Below are positions 8,389 to 17,652 of a stretch of DNA of 17,652 nt, one piece after another. Made by a program: the position numbers and the translations under genes. The notes beneath the pieces are model-generated. The model was not told the origin of the DNA. It was given only the letters and a program-made list of their open reading frames with translations, and did no database searches. Where the stretch lies: the NCBI GenBank assembly GCA_030671465.1, contig DAOVIP010000002.1:1-17652 (forward strand), read 5' to 3'. Every line of letters begins with the position of its first letter. The first letter of the stretch is position 1. Origin of the DNA: Candidatus Aminicenantota bacterium (lineage in GTDB: Bacteria; Acidobacteriota; Aminicenantia; UBA2199).

Positions 8389-9006
8389 ATGAATGATATG
8401 ATAAGCAACAGAATGGTTACTCGCGATATCCAATTGGATAAAAAAAAGGAGAAATCCATAGAGGAATATATGCATTTTTTAATGAAATCCAATAAAGAAA
8501 CCAATTTGATATCCAGGAAGATGACCCGGGATAATCTTCTCTGTTTGATACAGGAAACGCTCTTTATCGGCCCATTGGTTTCAAAGCCGGGAATCATTGA
8601 TGCCGGCAGTGGAAATGGTCTGCTGGGAGTACCATTGGCGATTTTAAATAAAAAACGCCCGGTTGTTTTAGTGGAAACAAAAAAGAAGAAAGTTTCCTTT
8701 CTTCGTAAATTGAAAAGTCAAATGTCACTGGATAATATTGAAATTTATGAAGGGCCGATTGAGGATTATTTAAGAAAAACACCTTCGGAAAACTTTTCTC
8801 TGGTAACCAGAGGGTTCCCTCGACTTGAAATAATACTGCGGTATTTACATAAAGGAATTGTTCGGGAGATTCTGGTGATTACCGCCAAGAGAAAAATGAT
8901 AAAAATAAAAAAAGGTATGGAAAGTATTACACAAAAAATTTATAATATACCTTTTAGGGATAATATAGTCATTTACAAAATGGAGAATGTTTCACGTGAA
9001 ACATAA
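8389..9006 (+). CDS. rsmG: 16S rRNA (guanine-527-N7)-methyltransferase RsmG (GidB)
   Basis: RsmG methylates G527 of 16S rRNA with S-adenosylmethionine. The 205-aa length and the SAM-binding motif IIDAGSGNGLLGVPLAI (69-85; the family has D-x-G-S-G-x-G-x-P-G), followed by the acidic VE (95-96) at the end of strand 2, are typical. So is the N-terminal helix with MKSNKETNLIS (32-42). VTRGFPR (139-145) replaces the common SRA motif. Start choice is uncertain: ATGs at 8389, 8398 and 8413 are in frame and none has a clear Shine-Dalgarno. The last codons (AAT GTT TCA CGT GAA ACA TAA) run through the parS site and overlap parA by 20 bp. The usual upstream genes mnmE/mnmG are absent here. Confidence 0.93.
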   Translation: MNDMISNRMVTRDIQLDKKKEKSIEEYMHFLMKSNKETNLISRKMTRDNLLCLIQETLFIGPLVSKPGIIDAGSGNGLLGVPLAILNKKRPVVLVETKKKKVSFLRKLKSQMSLDNIEIYEGPIEDYLRKTPSENFSLVTRGFPRLEIILRYLHKGIVREILVITAKRKMIKIKKGMESITQKIYNIPFRDNIVIYKMENVSRET

Positions 9007-9772
9007 TGAAAGAAATTGCGAAATTATTGCCATTGCCAATCAAAAAGGCGGAGTCGGAAAAACCACGACCGCCATTAATTTGGGCGCTGCGTTTGCCATT
9101 GCCGAGAAAAATGTTCTGTTGGTGGATCTTGATCCGCAGGCCAACTCAACCACTGGTCTGGGATTTGACAAGCATGGAATCGAAAAAGATATCTATTCGC
9201 TTCTGATTGGAAAAAATCGTATTGAAGATGTTGTATTGGCTTGTGGCCTTCAATTTATGAAATTGATCCCGTCTTCAAGGAATCTTGCCCGATTTGAACT
9301 GGAACTGATATCTGAAGACGACAACCATCTTTATTTAAAAAGTAATTTAGAAACGATTGTTGATCGCTTTGATTATATTATTATCGATTCTCCACCATCT
9401 CTGGGACTGCTTACCATAAATGCCCTGACCGCCTCGGATAGTGTTTTGATTCCCATTCAAACTGAGTATTATGCATTGGAGGGCCTATCTGATTTGATGA
9501 ATACAATCAAGAGAATCCGGGAAAACTTTAATTCTCAATTGAAGATCAAGGGCTTTCTATTGACCATGTTTGATGAAAGGACCAATTTGTCCAAACAGGT
9601 TGGTGAAGAGATACGGGGTTTTTTTAAATCGAAAGTTTATGAATCGATTATTCCCCGAAATGTAAAAATTTCCGAAGCCCCCAGTTTCGGGAAACCGATT
9701 CAGTTGTATGATGTTAAATCAGCAGGTTCAAAGGCCTATATGACTTTGGCAAAGGAGATGATGATTCGATGA
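8987..9772 (+). CDS. parA: chromosome-partitioning ATPase ParA (Soj)
   Basis: ParA is a deviant-Walker ATPase that binds nucleoid DNA as an ATP dimer and moves ParB-parS complexes. From the ATG the protein has 261 aa: IANQKGGVGKTTTA with the deviant Walker A (20-27, signature Lys20 and catalytic Lys25), LLVDLDPQANST (44-55) and the Walker B segment YIIIDSPPSLG. Two starts are possible. The ATG at 8987 gives MFHVKH, familiar from many ParA proteins, but GGAGA ends directly before it. A GTG at 8996, inside parS, has the same GGAG 10 nt upstream and would yield a protein 3 residues shorter. It overlaps rsmG by 20 bp and parB by 4 bp (ATGA). Confidence 0.95.
   Translation: MFHVKHNERNCEIIAIANQKGGVGKTTTAINLGAAFAIAEKNVLLVDLDPQANSTTGLGFDKHGIEKDIYSLLIGKNRIEDVVLACGLQFMKLIPSSRNLARFELELISEDDNHLYLKSNLETIVDRFDYIIIDSPPSLGLLTINALTASDSVLIPIQTEYYALEGLSDLMNTIKRIRENFNSQLKIKGFLLTMFDERTNLSKQVGEEIRGFFKSKVYESIIPRNVKISEAPSFGKPIQLYDVKSAGSKAYMTLAKEMMIR
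8988..9003. promoter_or_regulatory. parS: parS centromere site
   Basis: TGTTTCACGTGAAACA is a perfect 16-bp palindrome identical to the canonical chromosomal parS bound by ParB/Spo0J; one more symmetrical pair (A8987/T9004) extends it to 18 bp. It lies within the overlap of rsmG and parA, immediately next to the parAB genes and about 2.4 kb from the presumed origin region, as expected for a centromere near oriC. I found only this one copy in the window. Confidence 0.95.
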
Positions 9773-10611
9773 AAAGAAAAGTTTTGGGAAAGGGAATTGA
9801 AGCTATTATCTCCAACCGATCACCAGAAACTTCAGAAAAAATCCTATCTGATATTAATATTGAAGACATTTATCCCAATCCCTTTCAACCCCGAAAGGAT
9901 TTTAACCCGGTAAAAATAAAAGAGCTTGCCAACTCAATAAAGGAAGCGGGAATGATTCAGCCCATTGTGGTTTATAGGAAGGAAGACAAATATTATCTTC
10001 TGGTTGGAGAGCGTCGATGGAGGGCGGCCCAATATTTAAAATGGTCAACAATCCCGGGGCTGGTTAAAGACTTAACCATTGATGAGATAATGCTTGGTAC
10101 CCTGGTTGAGAATATTCAGAGAGAAAACCTGAATGCAATTGAAATTGCCGAAGGTATTGACTTGCTGATGAAAAAGAATGATTTCAATCAGGAAAGTGCA
10201 TCTGAAAAATTGGGAATGAACCGTGTTACCTTAACCAATTATTTGCGTTTATTGAAATTGCCTGAGGCTATCAAAAAGGGAATTGTGACCGGTGATTTGT
10301 CTCCCGGTCATGCCAGGCCCTTACTTTCTCTGAACGGTCAGGATGATATGATGCAGGCATTTTTAAAAATTCTGGATCAAAAGCTTTCTGTCAGACAAAC
10401 TGAAGCTTTGGTTAAGGCTTTCTATAAAACCAAAAGCAAATTGACCAGGGTTGAAGATCCGGATCAACAGAAAATTGAAAATAAATTAACCCGCTTTTTT
10501 TCAACCAAGGTAAAATTAATCTATTCGAAAAGCGGAAAAGGAAAAATTGAGATTCATTTCAACAAGCTTGATGAGTTTGAAAGGATATATAAATTGATTT
10601 TCAAGGAGTAG
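9769..10611 (+). CDS. parB: chromosome-partitioning protein ParB (Spo0J), CTP-dependent clamp
   Basis: ParB binds parS, then slides as a CTP-gated clamp and stimulates ParA. In 280 aa the order is typical: N-terminal ParA-activating segment (KRKVLGKGIEAII, 2-14), PNPFQPRKDF (36-45), IQPIVV (63-68), the CTP-binding GERRWRAAQ (80-88) and ENIQREN (114-120), and the parS-recognising HTH, about 142-163 (SASEKLGMNRVTLTNYLRLLKL). A C-terminal dimer domain ends in ERIYKLIFKE. The ATG overlaps the parA stop (ATGA) and has an AAGGAG Shine-Dalgarno 10 nt upstream within parA. Intact CTPase motifs and a perfect parS in the same operon indicate a working segregation system. Confidence 0.96.
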   Translation: MKRKVLGKGIEAIISNRSPETSEKILSDINIEDIYPNPFQPRKDFNPVKIKELANSIKEAGMIQPIVVYRKEDKYYLLVGERRWRAAQYLKWSTIPGLVKDLTIDEIMLGTLVENIQRENLNAIEIAEGIDLLMKKNDFNQESASEKLGMNRVTLTNYLRLLKLPEAIKKGIVTGDLSPGHARPLLSLNGQDDMMQAFLKILDQKLSVRQTEALVKAFYKTKSKLTRVEDPDQQKIENKLTRFFSTKVKLIYSKSGKGKIEIHFNKLDEFERIYKLIFKE

Positions 10612-13999: not shown

Positions 14000-14043
14000 T
14001 ATGTTTGGTCTTTTTTTAACCATTTAATTGAAATGAGGTGAAT

Positions 14044-16071
14044 ATGAAACAAAAAAAGTGGTTGTTTTTATTTTTCCTGATGATATCTTCAATCTTAATC
14101 ATGGCGGATTCATTTCCCCTGAACTTTGATCGCTATCATACTCCTGATGAGTTGAATCAAAGCCTGAAAAAGCTGGCAAATTTGTTTCCCCGCATTACCA
14201 AACTACACAAAATTGCGATTAGTCCTGGCGGCCGAAAGGTAATGCTTCTGGAAATAGGCCCGGAAGTGAAAAATAAAAGAAAGAAAAATCCTGCTATATT
14301 GGTTGTAGCCAATATGAGTGGAACCGTACCGATTTCCAGTGAGGGAGCAATGAAAACCATTCAAATAGTTCTGGATAAAGAAGAATCCAGAAGCGATAAA
14401 ACCTGGTATATCTGTCCGGTTGGAAATCCAGATGCCTTAAATCGATATTTTTCCAAACCTCTGGCAATGAACTCACGAAATAGCCATCCTCATAATGATG
14501 ATATGGATGATCAGCTGGATGAAGATGGTACGGAAGATCTTGATGGAAATGGAATTATTTCCATGATGCGGGTCAAATCTCCGGAGGGAAAATGGATTCC
14601 GATTCCGGGTGAACCCAGAATGATGAAAAAAGCAGATTGGTCTAAAGGTGAGAAGGGATTATATAAAGTCTATGTTGAAGGAATTGATAATGATGGAGAT
14701 GGGCAATACAATGAGGATGGACCGGGTGGAGTAGACATTGCCATCAATTTCCCCCATTTATTTAAGTTTTTTAAAAAAACCGGAGGTGCCTGGGCCGGGA
14801 GTGAAACAGAGAGTTTTAATTTAATCAAATTCATATTTCAACATCCTGAGATTGCCCTGACCTTTTGTCTGGGTGAAACCAATTTTTGCCTCATCCCGCC
14901 CAGAGGTGGGCGAAAGGGAACCGCAGATTTTTCCAAGATAAAAATTCCCGAGCGGGTTGGAAAAATGTTTAAGATGGATGTCAGCAGAACCTATACCATA
15001 AAAGAGATTATTGAAATTGTAACACCTTTTGTTCCCGAAGGTTTTGAAATTACTGAATCCATGGTTGCCAGCTTTTTAGGCCTGGGTGCAATGGTGAATC
15101 CTTTGGCGGCGGATCTTAAATTCTATAATGAAGTATCTGAAAAGTATAAGGAATTTCTTAAAAAAAATAAAATGGATAGCAAACGTTTGGATCCTCCAAA
15201 AGCCAAGGATGGATCTTTTGAACTCTGGTCTTATTATCATCTGGGATTGCCTTCTTTTAGCCTGGATTTCTGGACATTGCCGCAGTTAAAGGAGGAAAAA
15301 AAAGGAAAGTCGGACATTACACCTGAAAAACTGGAGAAAATGAGCAATGAAGAATTTTTAGCCCTTGGAGAAGAGAAAATTGATGCATTTCTAAAATCTT
15401 CCGGTGCTCCGGCCAATGTTAAAGCCAAGATGATTATGAATGCGGTTAAGAATGGCATGATGACCACAAAAAAGATGACAGCGATGCTCCGAAATATGCC
15501 CAAACCCAAGAGCAAGGAAGGCGGTGATCCTGTTTTAAAGGCATTGTTGGCCTTCAGTGATAAAGAGTTGAAGGGAAAGGGCTTTATGAATTGGAAACCT
15601 TTCCAGCATAAGACATTGGGAAAAGTTGAGTTGGGCGGAGCTGTTCCCTATTCTCAAACTACTCCTCCAGCTCATATGATTAATCAATTGATTGAAGGAC
15701 AGGTCCCCTGGATTCTTCATTTGGCAAAAAAAATCGCCAGAATCAAAATCGTGAAATCAGAAGTGAAATCCCTGGGCAACGGTTTATTTCGACTAAAAAT
15801 CTGGATTGAAAACCGGGGTTATCTTCCGTATCCTACGGAAATGGGAAAAAGAAATAATCGTGTTCCTCCAATAGTGGTAACCATTGAGGGTGAAAATATG
15901 AAAATTATTGAAGGAAAAAAGAGAAGCCTGATTAAGGGTATTGCCGGAACCAGCAACCAGGTAGTGAACTGGATTCTTTACAGTAAAAAACCCGGGAAAG
16001 TAAAGATTAATGCCTTTACTCCTCTTGCCTGGGCAGACAGTACATTCTTGAATTTAGGAGGTTCCAAATGA
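14044..16071 (+). CDS. exported M14-fold protein lacking the zinc site (putative pseudo-carboxypeptidase)
   Basis: The 675-aa protein has a signal peptide (residues 1-21, KQKK then a hydrophobic run ending IMA). Its plan matches the next gene: FPRITKL (48-54), NPD (128-130), an acidic insertion with calcium-loop-like DLDGNG (165-170) and DNDGDG (215-220), and a shared C-terminal part WKPF-H-G-E-GG (517-532). Aligned to its neighbour, the zinc motif HxxE is SGTV (Ser92, Val95), the third zinc His is Gly277, NRNW is AINF, and the catalytic Glu is Asp407. It should therefore bind no catalytic zinc. A helical insertion (about 415-510) is absent from the neighbour. The start is the ATG after GAGGTGA (14035-14041); a GTG at 14038 lies inside that site. 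A binding, scaffold or regulatory role beside the active paralogue is inferred. Confidence 0.8.
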   Translation: MKQKKWLFLFFLMISSILIMADSFPLNFDRYHTPDELNQSLKKLANLFPRITKLHKIAISPGGRKVMLLEIGPEVKNKRKKNPAILVVANMSGTVPISSEGAMKTIQIVLDKEESRSDKTWYICPVGNPDALNRYFSKPLAMNSRNSHPHNDDMDDQLDEDGTEDLDGNGIISMMRVKSPEGKWIPIPGEPRMMKKADWSKGEKGLYKVYVEGIDNDGDGQYNEDGPGGVDIAINFPHLFKFFKKTGGAWAGSETESFNLIKFIFQHPEIALTFCLGETNFCLIPPRGGRKGTADFSKIKIPERVGKMFKMDVSRTYTIKEIIEIVTPFVPEGFEITESMVASFLGLGAMVNPLAADLKFYNEVSEKYKEFLKKNKMDSKRLDPPKAKDGSFELWSYYHLGLPSFSLDFWTLPQLKEEKKGKSDITPEKLEKMSNEEFLALGEEKIDAFLKSSGAPANVKAKMIMNAVKNGMMTTKKMTAMLRNMPKPKSKEGGDPVLKALLAFSDKELKGKGFMNWKPFQHKTLGKVELGGAVPYSQTTPPAHMINQLIEGQVPWILHLAKKIARIKIVKSEVKSLGNGLFRLKIWIENRGYLPYPTEMGKRNNRVPPIVVTIEGENMKIIEGKKRSLIKGIAGTSNQVVNWILYSKKPGKVKINAFTPLAWADSTFLNLGGSK

Positions 16072-17652
16072 AGAAAAAATATATACTTTTTATGATTATA
16101 CTTCTGGGAATTGTATTTGGACCAGTCACCTCTTATTCAAAATCCAAAGTATCGGTTCCTCTACGGTTTGACCATTATTATGATTATGCAATGGTCATTG
16201 ATGCCTTAAAGGTTCTTCATAAATCCTTTCCTCGATTAACCAAATTGGATCTGGTGGGAAAAAGTGAAGAGGGAAGGTCTATATATTGTATGACCGTCAA
16301 CAATCCACAAACCGGTCCAGAACTTGACAAACCGGGTATATATGTGGATGGGAATATCCATGGTAATGAGATTCAAGCCACTGAAGTGGCACTGTATTTA
16401 CTCAATTATTTATTGACGAATTATCAGAAAAATAAAGAAATAACCGCCCTGGTTGATAAAAAATGCTTTTATATTGTTCCCATGGTAAATCCGGACGGTC
16501 GTTTCCATTTTTTTACCGATCCCAATACCCCAAACAATAACCGGGGTTTACGCAGACCTCATGATGATGATCATGATGGCTTGGTGGATGAGGATTTCCC
16601 CGATGATCTTGATGGAGATGGAAATATTTGTACAATGCGGAAAAGGGATCCCCATGGGCTATTCAAAACAGATCCTGAAGATCCAAGGTTGATGGTCAGA
16701 ATAAAGCCAGGAGAAACCGGAGAATGGACCATTCTGGGTTCGGAAGGAATTGATAACGATGGTGATGGTAAAATAAATGAAGATGCCGAAGGATATGTCG
16801 ACCCCAATAGAAATTGGGGATTCGACTGGATGCCGCCTTATGTGCAGCAGGGATCCGGAGATTATCCTTTTTCCGGTGTGGGATTGAAAGCCCTGGCCAG
16901 TTATATTAGAAAACGCCCCAATATTTGCATTGCCTGGGCCTTTCATAATACTGGGGGGATGTTTCTGAGAGGACCAAGTACCAAAGCCCAGCCAGACTAT
17001 CATCCTCTGGATATAGCAGTTTATGACTATCTGGGAGAACAGGCTGAAAGAATTACGCCCGGATACCGTTATCTGATCAGTTGGAAAGATCTCTATACCA
17101 CCTATGGTGATTTTGGGGAATGGATGACCATGATTATGGGTTCTTATACCTTTGTGGGCGAACTGTACATGAGTAAACAGGAGAGTTTTAAAAGTTTTAA
17201 GGAGAGCAAAAAAGTATCCCCCAATGATGAGGATGATGAATTTTCTTTCAGAGGTGACAGATCCTTTGATCGGGAACGATTGAAGTTTAATGACCACTTG
17301 GCCCAGGGAAAATTGTATAAACCCTGGAAAGCGTTTAAACATCCGATTTATGGTGATATTGAAATTGGTGGATGGGTAAAAATGAGTTCACGTTTGTCAG
17401 ATCCCTTCATGCTAATTGATCTGGTTCACCGCAATGCTTCAGCTGTTATTTTTTCTGCCAAAAACACACCGGATATAAGACTGGAAGTGATTGAGATAAA
17501 CAAAATCACCCCGGATCTTACCCGTATTCGAACCCGGCTGAGCAATAGCAAGGCAATTCCTACCATGAGCTACCATGTACAGAATGTTAAACTTTACCCT
17601 CAGGATATGTTAAAAATATCAGGAAAAAACATCAAGGTAGTTGCTGGTGGTA
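16068..17652 (+). CDS. exported zinc carboxypeptidase, M14 family (3' end beyond window)
   Basis: I translated 528 residues before the window ends. A signal peptide (about 1-24) is followed by an M14 domain with all key residues: zinc ligands His98 and Glu101 in NIHGNE, NPDGR (141-145), substrate-binding Asn247/Arg248 in DPNRNW, the third zinc ligand His293 in AFHNTGG, and the catalytic Glu365 in TFVGELY. Between NPDGR and DPNRNW lies an acidic insertion with three calcium-loop-like stretches (166-176, 180-187, 229-239; for example DNDGDGKINED). The protein continues into a C-terminal region homologous to that of the preceding protein. The ATG overlaps the upstream TGA (ATGA) and has AGGAGG 6 nt before it, a stronger site than that of the first gene. 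Secreted peptide degradation is the likely role; specificity is unknown. Confidence 0.9.
   Translation, partial: MKKKYILFMIILLGIVFGPVTSYSKSKVSVPLRFDHYYDYAMVIDALKVLHKSFPRLTKLDLVGKSEEGRSIYCMTVNNPQTGPELDKPGIYVDGNIHGNEIQATEVALYLLNYLLTNYQKNKEITALVDKKCFYIVPMVNPDGRFHFFTDPNTPNNNRGLRRPHDDDHDGLVDEDFPDDLDGDGNICTMRKRDPHGLFKTDPEDPRLMVRIKPGETGEWTILGSEGIDNDGDGKINEDAEGYVDPNRNWGFDWMPPYVQQGSGDYPFSGVGLKALASYIRKRPNICIAWAFHNTGGMFLRGPSTKAQPDYHPLDIAVYDYLGEQAERITPGYRYLISWKDLYTTYGDFGEWMTMIMGSYTFVGELYMSKQESFKSFKESKKVSPNDEDDEFSFRGDRSFDRERLKFNDHLAQGKLYKPWKAFKHPIYGDIEIGGWVKMSSRLSDPFMLIDLVHRNASAVIFSAKNTPDIRLEVIEINKITPDLTRIRTRLSNSKAIPTMSYHVQNVKLYPQDMLKISGKNIKVVAGG

Follow-up and report, generated by a model that had tools for sequence, protein, structure and literature searches.

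We analyzed a stretch of 17,652 nucleotides from a Candidatus Aminicenantota bacterium (hereafter the window), which makes up an entire contig (G000:C292) in a draft genome with 521 contigs and 88% completeness. The subject of this report is a pair of adjacent genes at its end, here called gene1 and gene2, both of which encode proteins of the M14 carboxypeptidase family. The product of gene2 keeps the complete set of zinc ligands and catalytic residues, and the product of gene1 has lost all of them. Judged by its residues, gene1 is an M14-fold pseudopeptidase and no M14 enzyme. We favor, with modest confidence, the explanation that the pair constitutes a two-subunit secreted metallocarboxypeptidase of which the gene1 product is the non-catalytic subunit.

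Gene1 occupies positions 14044..16071 of the forward strand and encodes 675 amino acids from ATG to TGA; starting instead at the GTG at 14038 would lengthen the protein by two residues. Gene2 begins at the ATG at 16068 and runs on the same strand to 17652 (528 amino acids). Because the window is the whole contig and this frame is still open at its last position, gene2 is cut by the contig end; a full-length version, P0122, has 589 amino acids and is 99% identical. A preliminary description of this DNA, made from the sequence alone, had reported an ATGA overlap and an AGGAGG site, and both are present on the forward strand. That is, the stop codon of gene1 overlaps the start codon of gene2 at 16068..16071, and the ribosome-binding-like AGGAGG lies at 16056..16061, 6 nucleotides ahead of the ATG of gene2. 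Among 185 pairs, duplicate organisms included, 88 have their nearest start codon at this same -4 offset. Judging from this overlap and the common strand, the two genes are probably carried on one transcript. A signal-like stretch starts both proteins and most of the relatives displayed, as seen with a lenient script that chooses the most signal-like start, and both proteins are therefore predicted to be secreted.

Both proteins matched the carboxypeptidase fold by Pfam and by fold matching. The scores with Pfam PF00246 (M14) were 49 bits for gene1 and 131 bits for gene2, against a cut-off of 21.6. When the two proteins were compared directly by BLASTP, 154 of 649 columns were identical (24%; E = 3e-37 in this single comparison), which bears out the earlier proposal that they are paralogues. 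Carboxypeptidases T, A and B differ from them in having shorter chains, about 300-330 residues in most structures matched, and we know of no dead partner for these enzymes.

The zinc triad of M14 enzymes (His/Glu/His) and the catalytic Glu are complete in gene2, where the alignment places the zinc motif H98-G-N-E101 at 16359..16370, the third ligand His293 at 16944..16946 and the catalytic Glu365 at 17160..17162, all on the forward strand. The substrate-pocket Asn-Arg is also retained, as N247-R248. In gene1, on the same strand, the zinc motif HxxE is replaced by SGTV (residues 92-95, 14317..14328; S92 and V95 stand for the two ligands), the Asn-Arg by Ala-Ile (residues 233-234, 14740..14745), the third ligand His by Gly277 (14872..14874) and the catalytic Glu by Asp408 (15265..15267). 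The residue comparison in the preliminary description thus stood at every position except the last, which had been written as 407. In a profile of 30 gene1 relatives, the corresponding E-G-x-x stretch aligned with the zinc motif of the solved carboxypeptidases M, D and T. No HxxE was found anywhere in gene1 of the window, and gene2 has one, at 98. Chance matches of the HxxE type in the gene1 open reading frames (ORFs) of loci L076, L191, L280 and L281 were rejected; they lie off the aligned site, where E stands.

The two proteins also share acidic stretches resembling calcium loops. In gene1 there are two of them, at about residues 151-177 and 212-229 (14494..14730, forward strand). The acidic calcium-like insertion noticed earlier in both proteins has invariant Asp, Glu and Gly columns across the alignments, and these stretches may bind calcium in both. 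Gene1 in addition has a conserved C-terminal region of its own.

We aligned 100 gene1-like and 94 gene2-like ORFs from the window's class, for which a score of 200 bits or more with P0001 or P0122 was required, and counted residues at each position with gapped rows set aside. At position 98, none of the 93 readable gene1 rows had His (E in 74, D in 9, S in 4, G and N in 2 each, Q and A in 1 each), and all 93 readable gene2 rows did. At position 101, gene1 never had Glu and had His in 41 rows; gene2 had Glu in 93/93. The third ligand position, 293, was His in 0/97 gene1 rows (G 53, S 39, D 5) and in 91/91 gene2 rows. Position 365 was Glu in none of 100 gene1 rows (D 85, P 8, N 5, H 1, R 1) and in all 89 readable rows of gene2. 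The Ser92 of the window is itself unusual, most relatives having Glu or Asp there.

The gene1 rows of the class fall into clades A (46 rows, including the window), B (41) and C (13), which were set by order of fetching, i.e., by score to P0001, and not by a tree of all rows. Position 101 is mainly Val in clade A and His in clades B and C. The substrate-pocket Asn-Arg is lost in clade A and mostly kept in B and C, and this distribution suggests that the residues of gene1 were lost stepwise.

The same division was seen beyond the class. From a scan of GTDB representative genomes we took the best 80 of at least 462 confirmed places (the named set), keeping ORFs of more than 250 bits with either profile. 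Among these, gene1 had His98 in 0/79, His293 in 0/80 and Glu365 in 0/79, and gene2 had them in 75/75, 73/73 and 72/72, respectively. In 18 loci of Acidobacteriota outside the window's class, a few of whose organisms recur in the named set, H98, H293 and E365 were kept in none of 18 gene1 proteins (one unread at 98). Gene2 there had both His in 17/17 and Glu in 16/17; the lone exception is the truncated gene2 of L282, with Leu at 365, beside a gene1 that is interrupted too. The class (L058-L157), named (L165-L244) and later (L274-L293) loci repeat some organisms, and their counts overlap and must not be added. The expectation that the first member of such pairs always lacks HxxE was therefore borne out in the class, in the named set and in the Acidobacteriota outside the class.

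By NCBI name, the named set spans eight phylum-level groups. It contains 28 Aminicenantes/Aminicenantota, 28 Bacteroidota, 13 Acidobacteriota (some in the window's class), 2 Planctomycetota and one each of Balneolota, Chlorobiota, Zixiibacteriota and KSB1, with 5 lacking such a name. The recurrence of a dead and an active gene together across many phyla suggests that the two proteins work as a unit. Strain-titled records, such as those of Maribellus luteus XSD2 and Fodinibius halophilus 2W32, are among the carriers, which is evidence against a binning artefact.

The linkage of the two genes is close. Within the class, gene1 was matched in 100 of 142 genomes at 1e-20 and gene2 in 98 of 142 at 1e-60, two counts that are not independent, since the gene1 search at this threshold also picks up gene2. 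In all fetched loci, duplicates included, gene2 adjoins 185 gene1 rows in 182 loci, the pieces of interrupted gene1 being counted apart (L140, L146, L282), and gene1 precedes gene2 in the listed pairs. The remaining 22 gene1 without a full partner have at most 815 nucleotides left downstream, and several of them have a truncated gene2. Conversely, 8 places in the class have a gene2 of at least 300 bits without a gene1 match on the same contig; 5 of these show the end of gene1 upstream and the other 3 have at most 194 nucleotides upstream. No gene2 standing alone was thus found among the class places of at least 300 bits, weaker gene2 matches having been followed in part. Interrupted frames occur in single draft loci, namely in both genes of L282 and L140, in gene1 only of L146 and in gene2 only of L144. 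The preliminary description had named, as evidence that would refute it, an HxxE elsewhere in gene1 or relatives in which gene1 is absent or broken beside an unaffected gene2. Both checks came out in its favor; absence was not encountered, and a broken gene1 next to an intact gene2 exists in the one draft locus L146.

One genome, G044, holds three pair types, each with the dead gene first and the active gene second. These types differ by 2.34-2.82 changes per site in gene1 and by 1.83-2.15 in gene2, and the pairs were therefore copied or acquired as units. As a separate observation, in G005 (L059) and G011 (L066) gene2 is tandem-duplicated (dead, active, active) and the dead gene is single.

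Other M14 genes served as controls. M14 relatives from these genomes whose fetched sequence showed no other M14 frame, including a few at contig ends, kept HxxE and the catalytic Glu in every aligned case. Tandem M14 pairs of another type (L314 2857-6905, L315 3070-7114 and L316 3306-7314) have two complete active sites, and catalytic loss is therefore not inevitable in a tandem pair. Because both control sets keep these residues, the loss is predicted by the first place in the present pair and not by M14 membership or the tandem state. It is possible, from their residues, that the active/active type represents the ancestral state of the dead/active pair. Fourteen of the relatives without a partner frame (L269, L271, L317-L324, L326-L329) had HxxE and the catalytic Glu together with Asp at the third ligand position; either the alignment is off at this spot or His, Glu and Asp make up an unusual site.

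We next describe descent and selection. In a tree of 85 rows, gene1 formed one clade with a support of 100 in the Shimodaira-Hasegawa-like approximate likelihood ratio test (SH-aLRT) and gene2 one clade with 99. When the active/active pairs were added in a second tree, which omits L231, L233 and L237, each clade was supported at 100. In this second tree the first genes of the active/active pairs took a place intermediate between gene1 and all other rows, with a support of 93, and their second genes were close to gene2, with a support of 71. Both trees were quick ones without bootstrap. This placement fits an ancestral active pair, the unrooted tree being no proof of it. The evolutionary distances among 37 gene1 proteins mirrored those among their gene2 partners (r = 0.906; the highest of 5000 permutations was 0.295), so that the two genes have diverged together.

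The ratio of nonsynonymous to synonymous substitution (dN/dS, Nei-Gojobori), which had been proposed as a check on the first gene, was computed for the 60 closest comparisons remaining once those at a gene1 identity of at least 98.5% had been removed; these comparisons share sequences. Gene1 had a median of 0.111 and a maximum of 0.37. For gene2 the median was 0.082 and the maximum 0.75, the latter in L150/L152, with an over-long gene2 frame. Purifying selection on gene1 is nearly as strong as that on gene2. Residue conservation, the single gene1 clade and the dN/dS values together uphold the earlier claim that catalysis was lost without decay of the gene. Of the three gene1 segments with the highest conservation, two (388-399 and 402-413) lie next to the lost Glu.

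Just past the lost catalytic Glu, gene1 carries a helical insert (residues 415-492; 15286..15519, forward strand), which is about 77 residues long (about 65-77) in many gene1 proteins. A profile of this insert matched the gene1 rows of pairs in 40/42 cases of clade A, 34/37 of clade B and 0/13 of clade C, and none of gene2. The corresponding fractions for gene1 were 54/71 in the named set and 11/22 in the later set. In the 142 class genomes, the insert alignment matched the gene1 loci and 36 other places. All 23 of these that were examined (L294-L313, L004, L025 and L027) belong to one subfamily of VPS10/BNR-type propellers, with the insert in one place; the propeller query matched Pfam Sortilin-Vps10 with 126 bits. 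The genome of the window also encodes such an insert-bearing propeller relative (G000:C16), and in some genomes, e.g., G004, G032, G038 and G097, the insert is listed only in a long frame other than gene1.

VPS10-like proteins that lack the insert were also found as neighbors of the pair, no more than 1.4 kilobases away, in 26 of 147 loci. Clade B accounts for 22 of these loci, clade A for 2 (one case being weak and split) and clade C for 1, and the last is from outside the class. Such loci include L103, L105-L108, L071, L156 and L284, and one was confirmed by Pfam. The neighbor may be divergent, upstream on the same strand or downstream on the same strand. Chance adjacency would be about 1% per locus, assuming some 2,000 genes per genome, and two genomes have at least 5 and at least 7 distinct VPS10-like frames. 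Most of the 26 loci represent one inherited arrangement, and the variety of arrangements hints at repeated association. We regard the insert, where present, as the best candidate for a docking surface of gene1. A further speculation is that the dead M14 subunit links the active one to a VPS10-like propeller receptor via a helical docking insert that the two share or that matches, and that the three together make up an extracellular peptide-harvesting machine; this would be a hitherto unrecognized class of secreted multi-subunit carboxypeptidases in many phyla. We consider this doubtful.

Taken comprehensively, the paralogy, the common M14 fold, the full loss of catalytic residues in gene1 against their full retention in gene2, the close linkage, the co-divergence and the purifying selection shown above lead us to the following picture of the pair as a two-subunit enzyme. 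Gene2, given its M14 residues, would be the zinc-dependent catalytic subunit and would cleave C-terminal residues off extracellular peptides. Gene1 would be a paralogue that no longer binds zinc or catalyzes, a loss most simply explained by a single event; it is probably co-transcribed and secreted with gene2 and would bind to it. We infer from the genes such a physical association and a role of gene1 in capture or docking. That is, gene1 may present or capture the substrate, gate its access or anchor it, perhaps via the remodeled cleft and the adjacent helical insert.

Several of our results weigh against this picture. The active/active pairs indicate, as far as residues tell, that tandem M14 genes need no dead partner. 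The insert is inessential to the pair as such, because it is absent from clade C and from part of the other gene1 proteins. No gene1-gene2 fusion was seen, and no ORF scored high with both profiles; single-gene interruptions occur, in L144 for gene2 and in L146 for gene1. Part of the co-divergence described above would arise in any linked pair simply because its genes have a common history. The cleft of gene1 was not significantly more conserved than the rest of the domain (p = 0.083; p = 0.065 for gene2), which is no proof of a used pocket in gene1. Finally, single-chain models of gene1 and gene2 had a mean predicted local distance difference test score (pLDDT) of 78 and 69, with low-confidence stretches.

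Four other explanations have to be considered. Gene1 might serve gene2 alone, as its regulator or as a chaperone for its secretion, i.e., as an inhibitor resembling a pro-domain or a folding helper, which is translated first, so as to be in place by the time gene2 appears, and stays outside the working enzyme. The place of gene1 ahead of gene2, the 4-nucleotide overlap described above and the finding that the Pfam scan gave no pro-domain match for gene2 agree with this idea. However, gene1 has the full M14 fold, a conserved C-terminal region and usually the insert, which exceeds what an inhibitor needs, and we judge such a role unlikely.

Alternatively, gene1 could act on its own as a secreted protein that binds peptides or polysaccharide or serves in surface anchoring, a shared transcript being its only tie to a peptidase that works in the same pathway. 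The relatives of the insert in VPS10-like propellers suggest partners other than gene2, and the four genomes named above list the insert only outside gene1. These points are set against the fact that gene1 without gene2 was never seen away from contig ends and that three pair lineages coexist in G044. This explanation seems quite unlikely to us.

It is also conceivable that gene1 keeps another metal site or activity and that the E-G-x-H that prevails in clades B and C represents swapped ligand positions. Of the class rows, 83 of 93 carry Glu or Asp at position 98 and 41 carry His at 101, and the Asn-Arg is mostly kept in these two clades. However, all readable rows have Gly, Ser or Asp in place of the third ligand, clade A has mostly Val at 101 and has lost the Asn-Arg, and the window has no Glu at 98. 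Such a site is very improbable. That gene1 is a decaying pseudogene or a draft-assembly artefact has virtually no probability, even though the window comes from a fragmented draft of 521 contigs and frames are interrupted in L282, L140 and L146, because open frames exist in the strain-titled records, and gene decay is ruled out by residue conservation in the class and the named set and by the gene1 dN/dS of about 0.11.

The two-subunit explanation has parallels in other peptidase families. Excerpts of PMC11266112 and PMC12731061 describe pairs of M16B peptidases, namely the alpha and beta subunits of MPP, SPH2681/SPH2682, TTHA1264/TTHA1265 and AlbF/AlbE; the inactive alpha subunit of MPP is essential, and the bacterial pairs come from a two-gene operon. 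As in the present pair, whose operon is judged by overlap and strand, homologous active and zinc-less metallopeptidase subunits are encoded together. The M16B peptidases differ in having a clam-shell fold with HxxEH, whereas our pair has the M14 fold and gene2 an HGNE-I motif; their heterodimer is proven, and that of the M14 pair is putative. Likewise, according to PMC5053510, Csd1 and Csd2 of Helicobacter pylori (M23B) associate stably at a ratio of 1:1, with helical domains providing the packing of the heterodimer, and of these two homologues one has zinc in the crystal and the other has none. Their LytM fold of the M23 type and their cell-shape role differ from those considered here. The M16B pairs and Csd1/Csd2 show that zinc-less metallopeptidase subunits occur in bacterial heterodimers.

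Pseudopeptidases of the M14 family itself are also known. The text consulted of PMC11266112, a review of metallopeptidase pseudoenzymes from 2024, names CPXM1, CPXM2, AEBP1, CPD domain III and Ecm14, with altered zinc or catalytic residues; four are from vertebrates, one is from yeast and none is bacterial. CPXM1 and Ecm14 retain three zinc ligands according to that text, whereas gene1 retains none. AEBP1 and the CPXM proteins carry a discoidin domain, unlike gene1, for which a Pfam scan up to E = 1 gave only PF00246 and a sub-threshold BatD match. We found no report of a bacterial M14 pseudopeptidase pair in the open-license literature, judged mostly by titles and the beginnings of abstracts. 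The principle of a dead and an active subunit in M14 is thus apparently undescribed for bacteria in what was searched, including the partial texts cited.

Other genes recur near the pair. In 16 loci, all of clade B, the pair is followed downstream by TldD/PmbA-type genes, usually two consecutive ones; the assignment was made by Pfam on one locus (L106 7862-10735, two matches). TldD and TldE (PmbA) form a two-gene metallopeptidase heterodimer in the cytosol with TldE as the inactive partner, and their fold family is unrelated to M14 by Pfam. A parA cluster is near the pair in 11 loci. In the window, parA/parB-like genes, named from sequence, are found at 8987-10611, a few kilobases from the pair, and in ten clade B loci a parA-like gene lies beyond the VPS10-like neighbor (L106, L108, L110, L112, L113, L115, L117, L121, L122 and L124).

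These results also carry a warning for annotation, since the close gene1 relatives P0022, P0098 and P0114 are named 'M14 family metallopeptidase' or 'Zinc carboxypeptidase'. If our explanation is true, the bacterial dead/active M14 pair, kept together across several phyla, would show that the combination of a dead and an active subunit known from M16B also exists in another of the large peptidase families, and the role of the dead peptidase subunit would become testable by one co-expression experiment.

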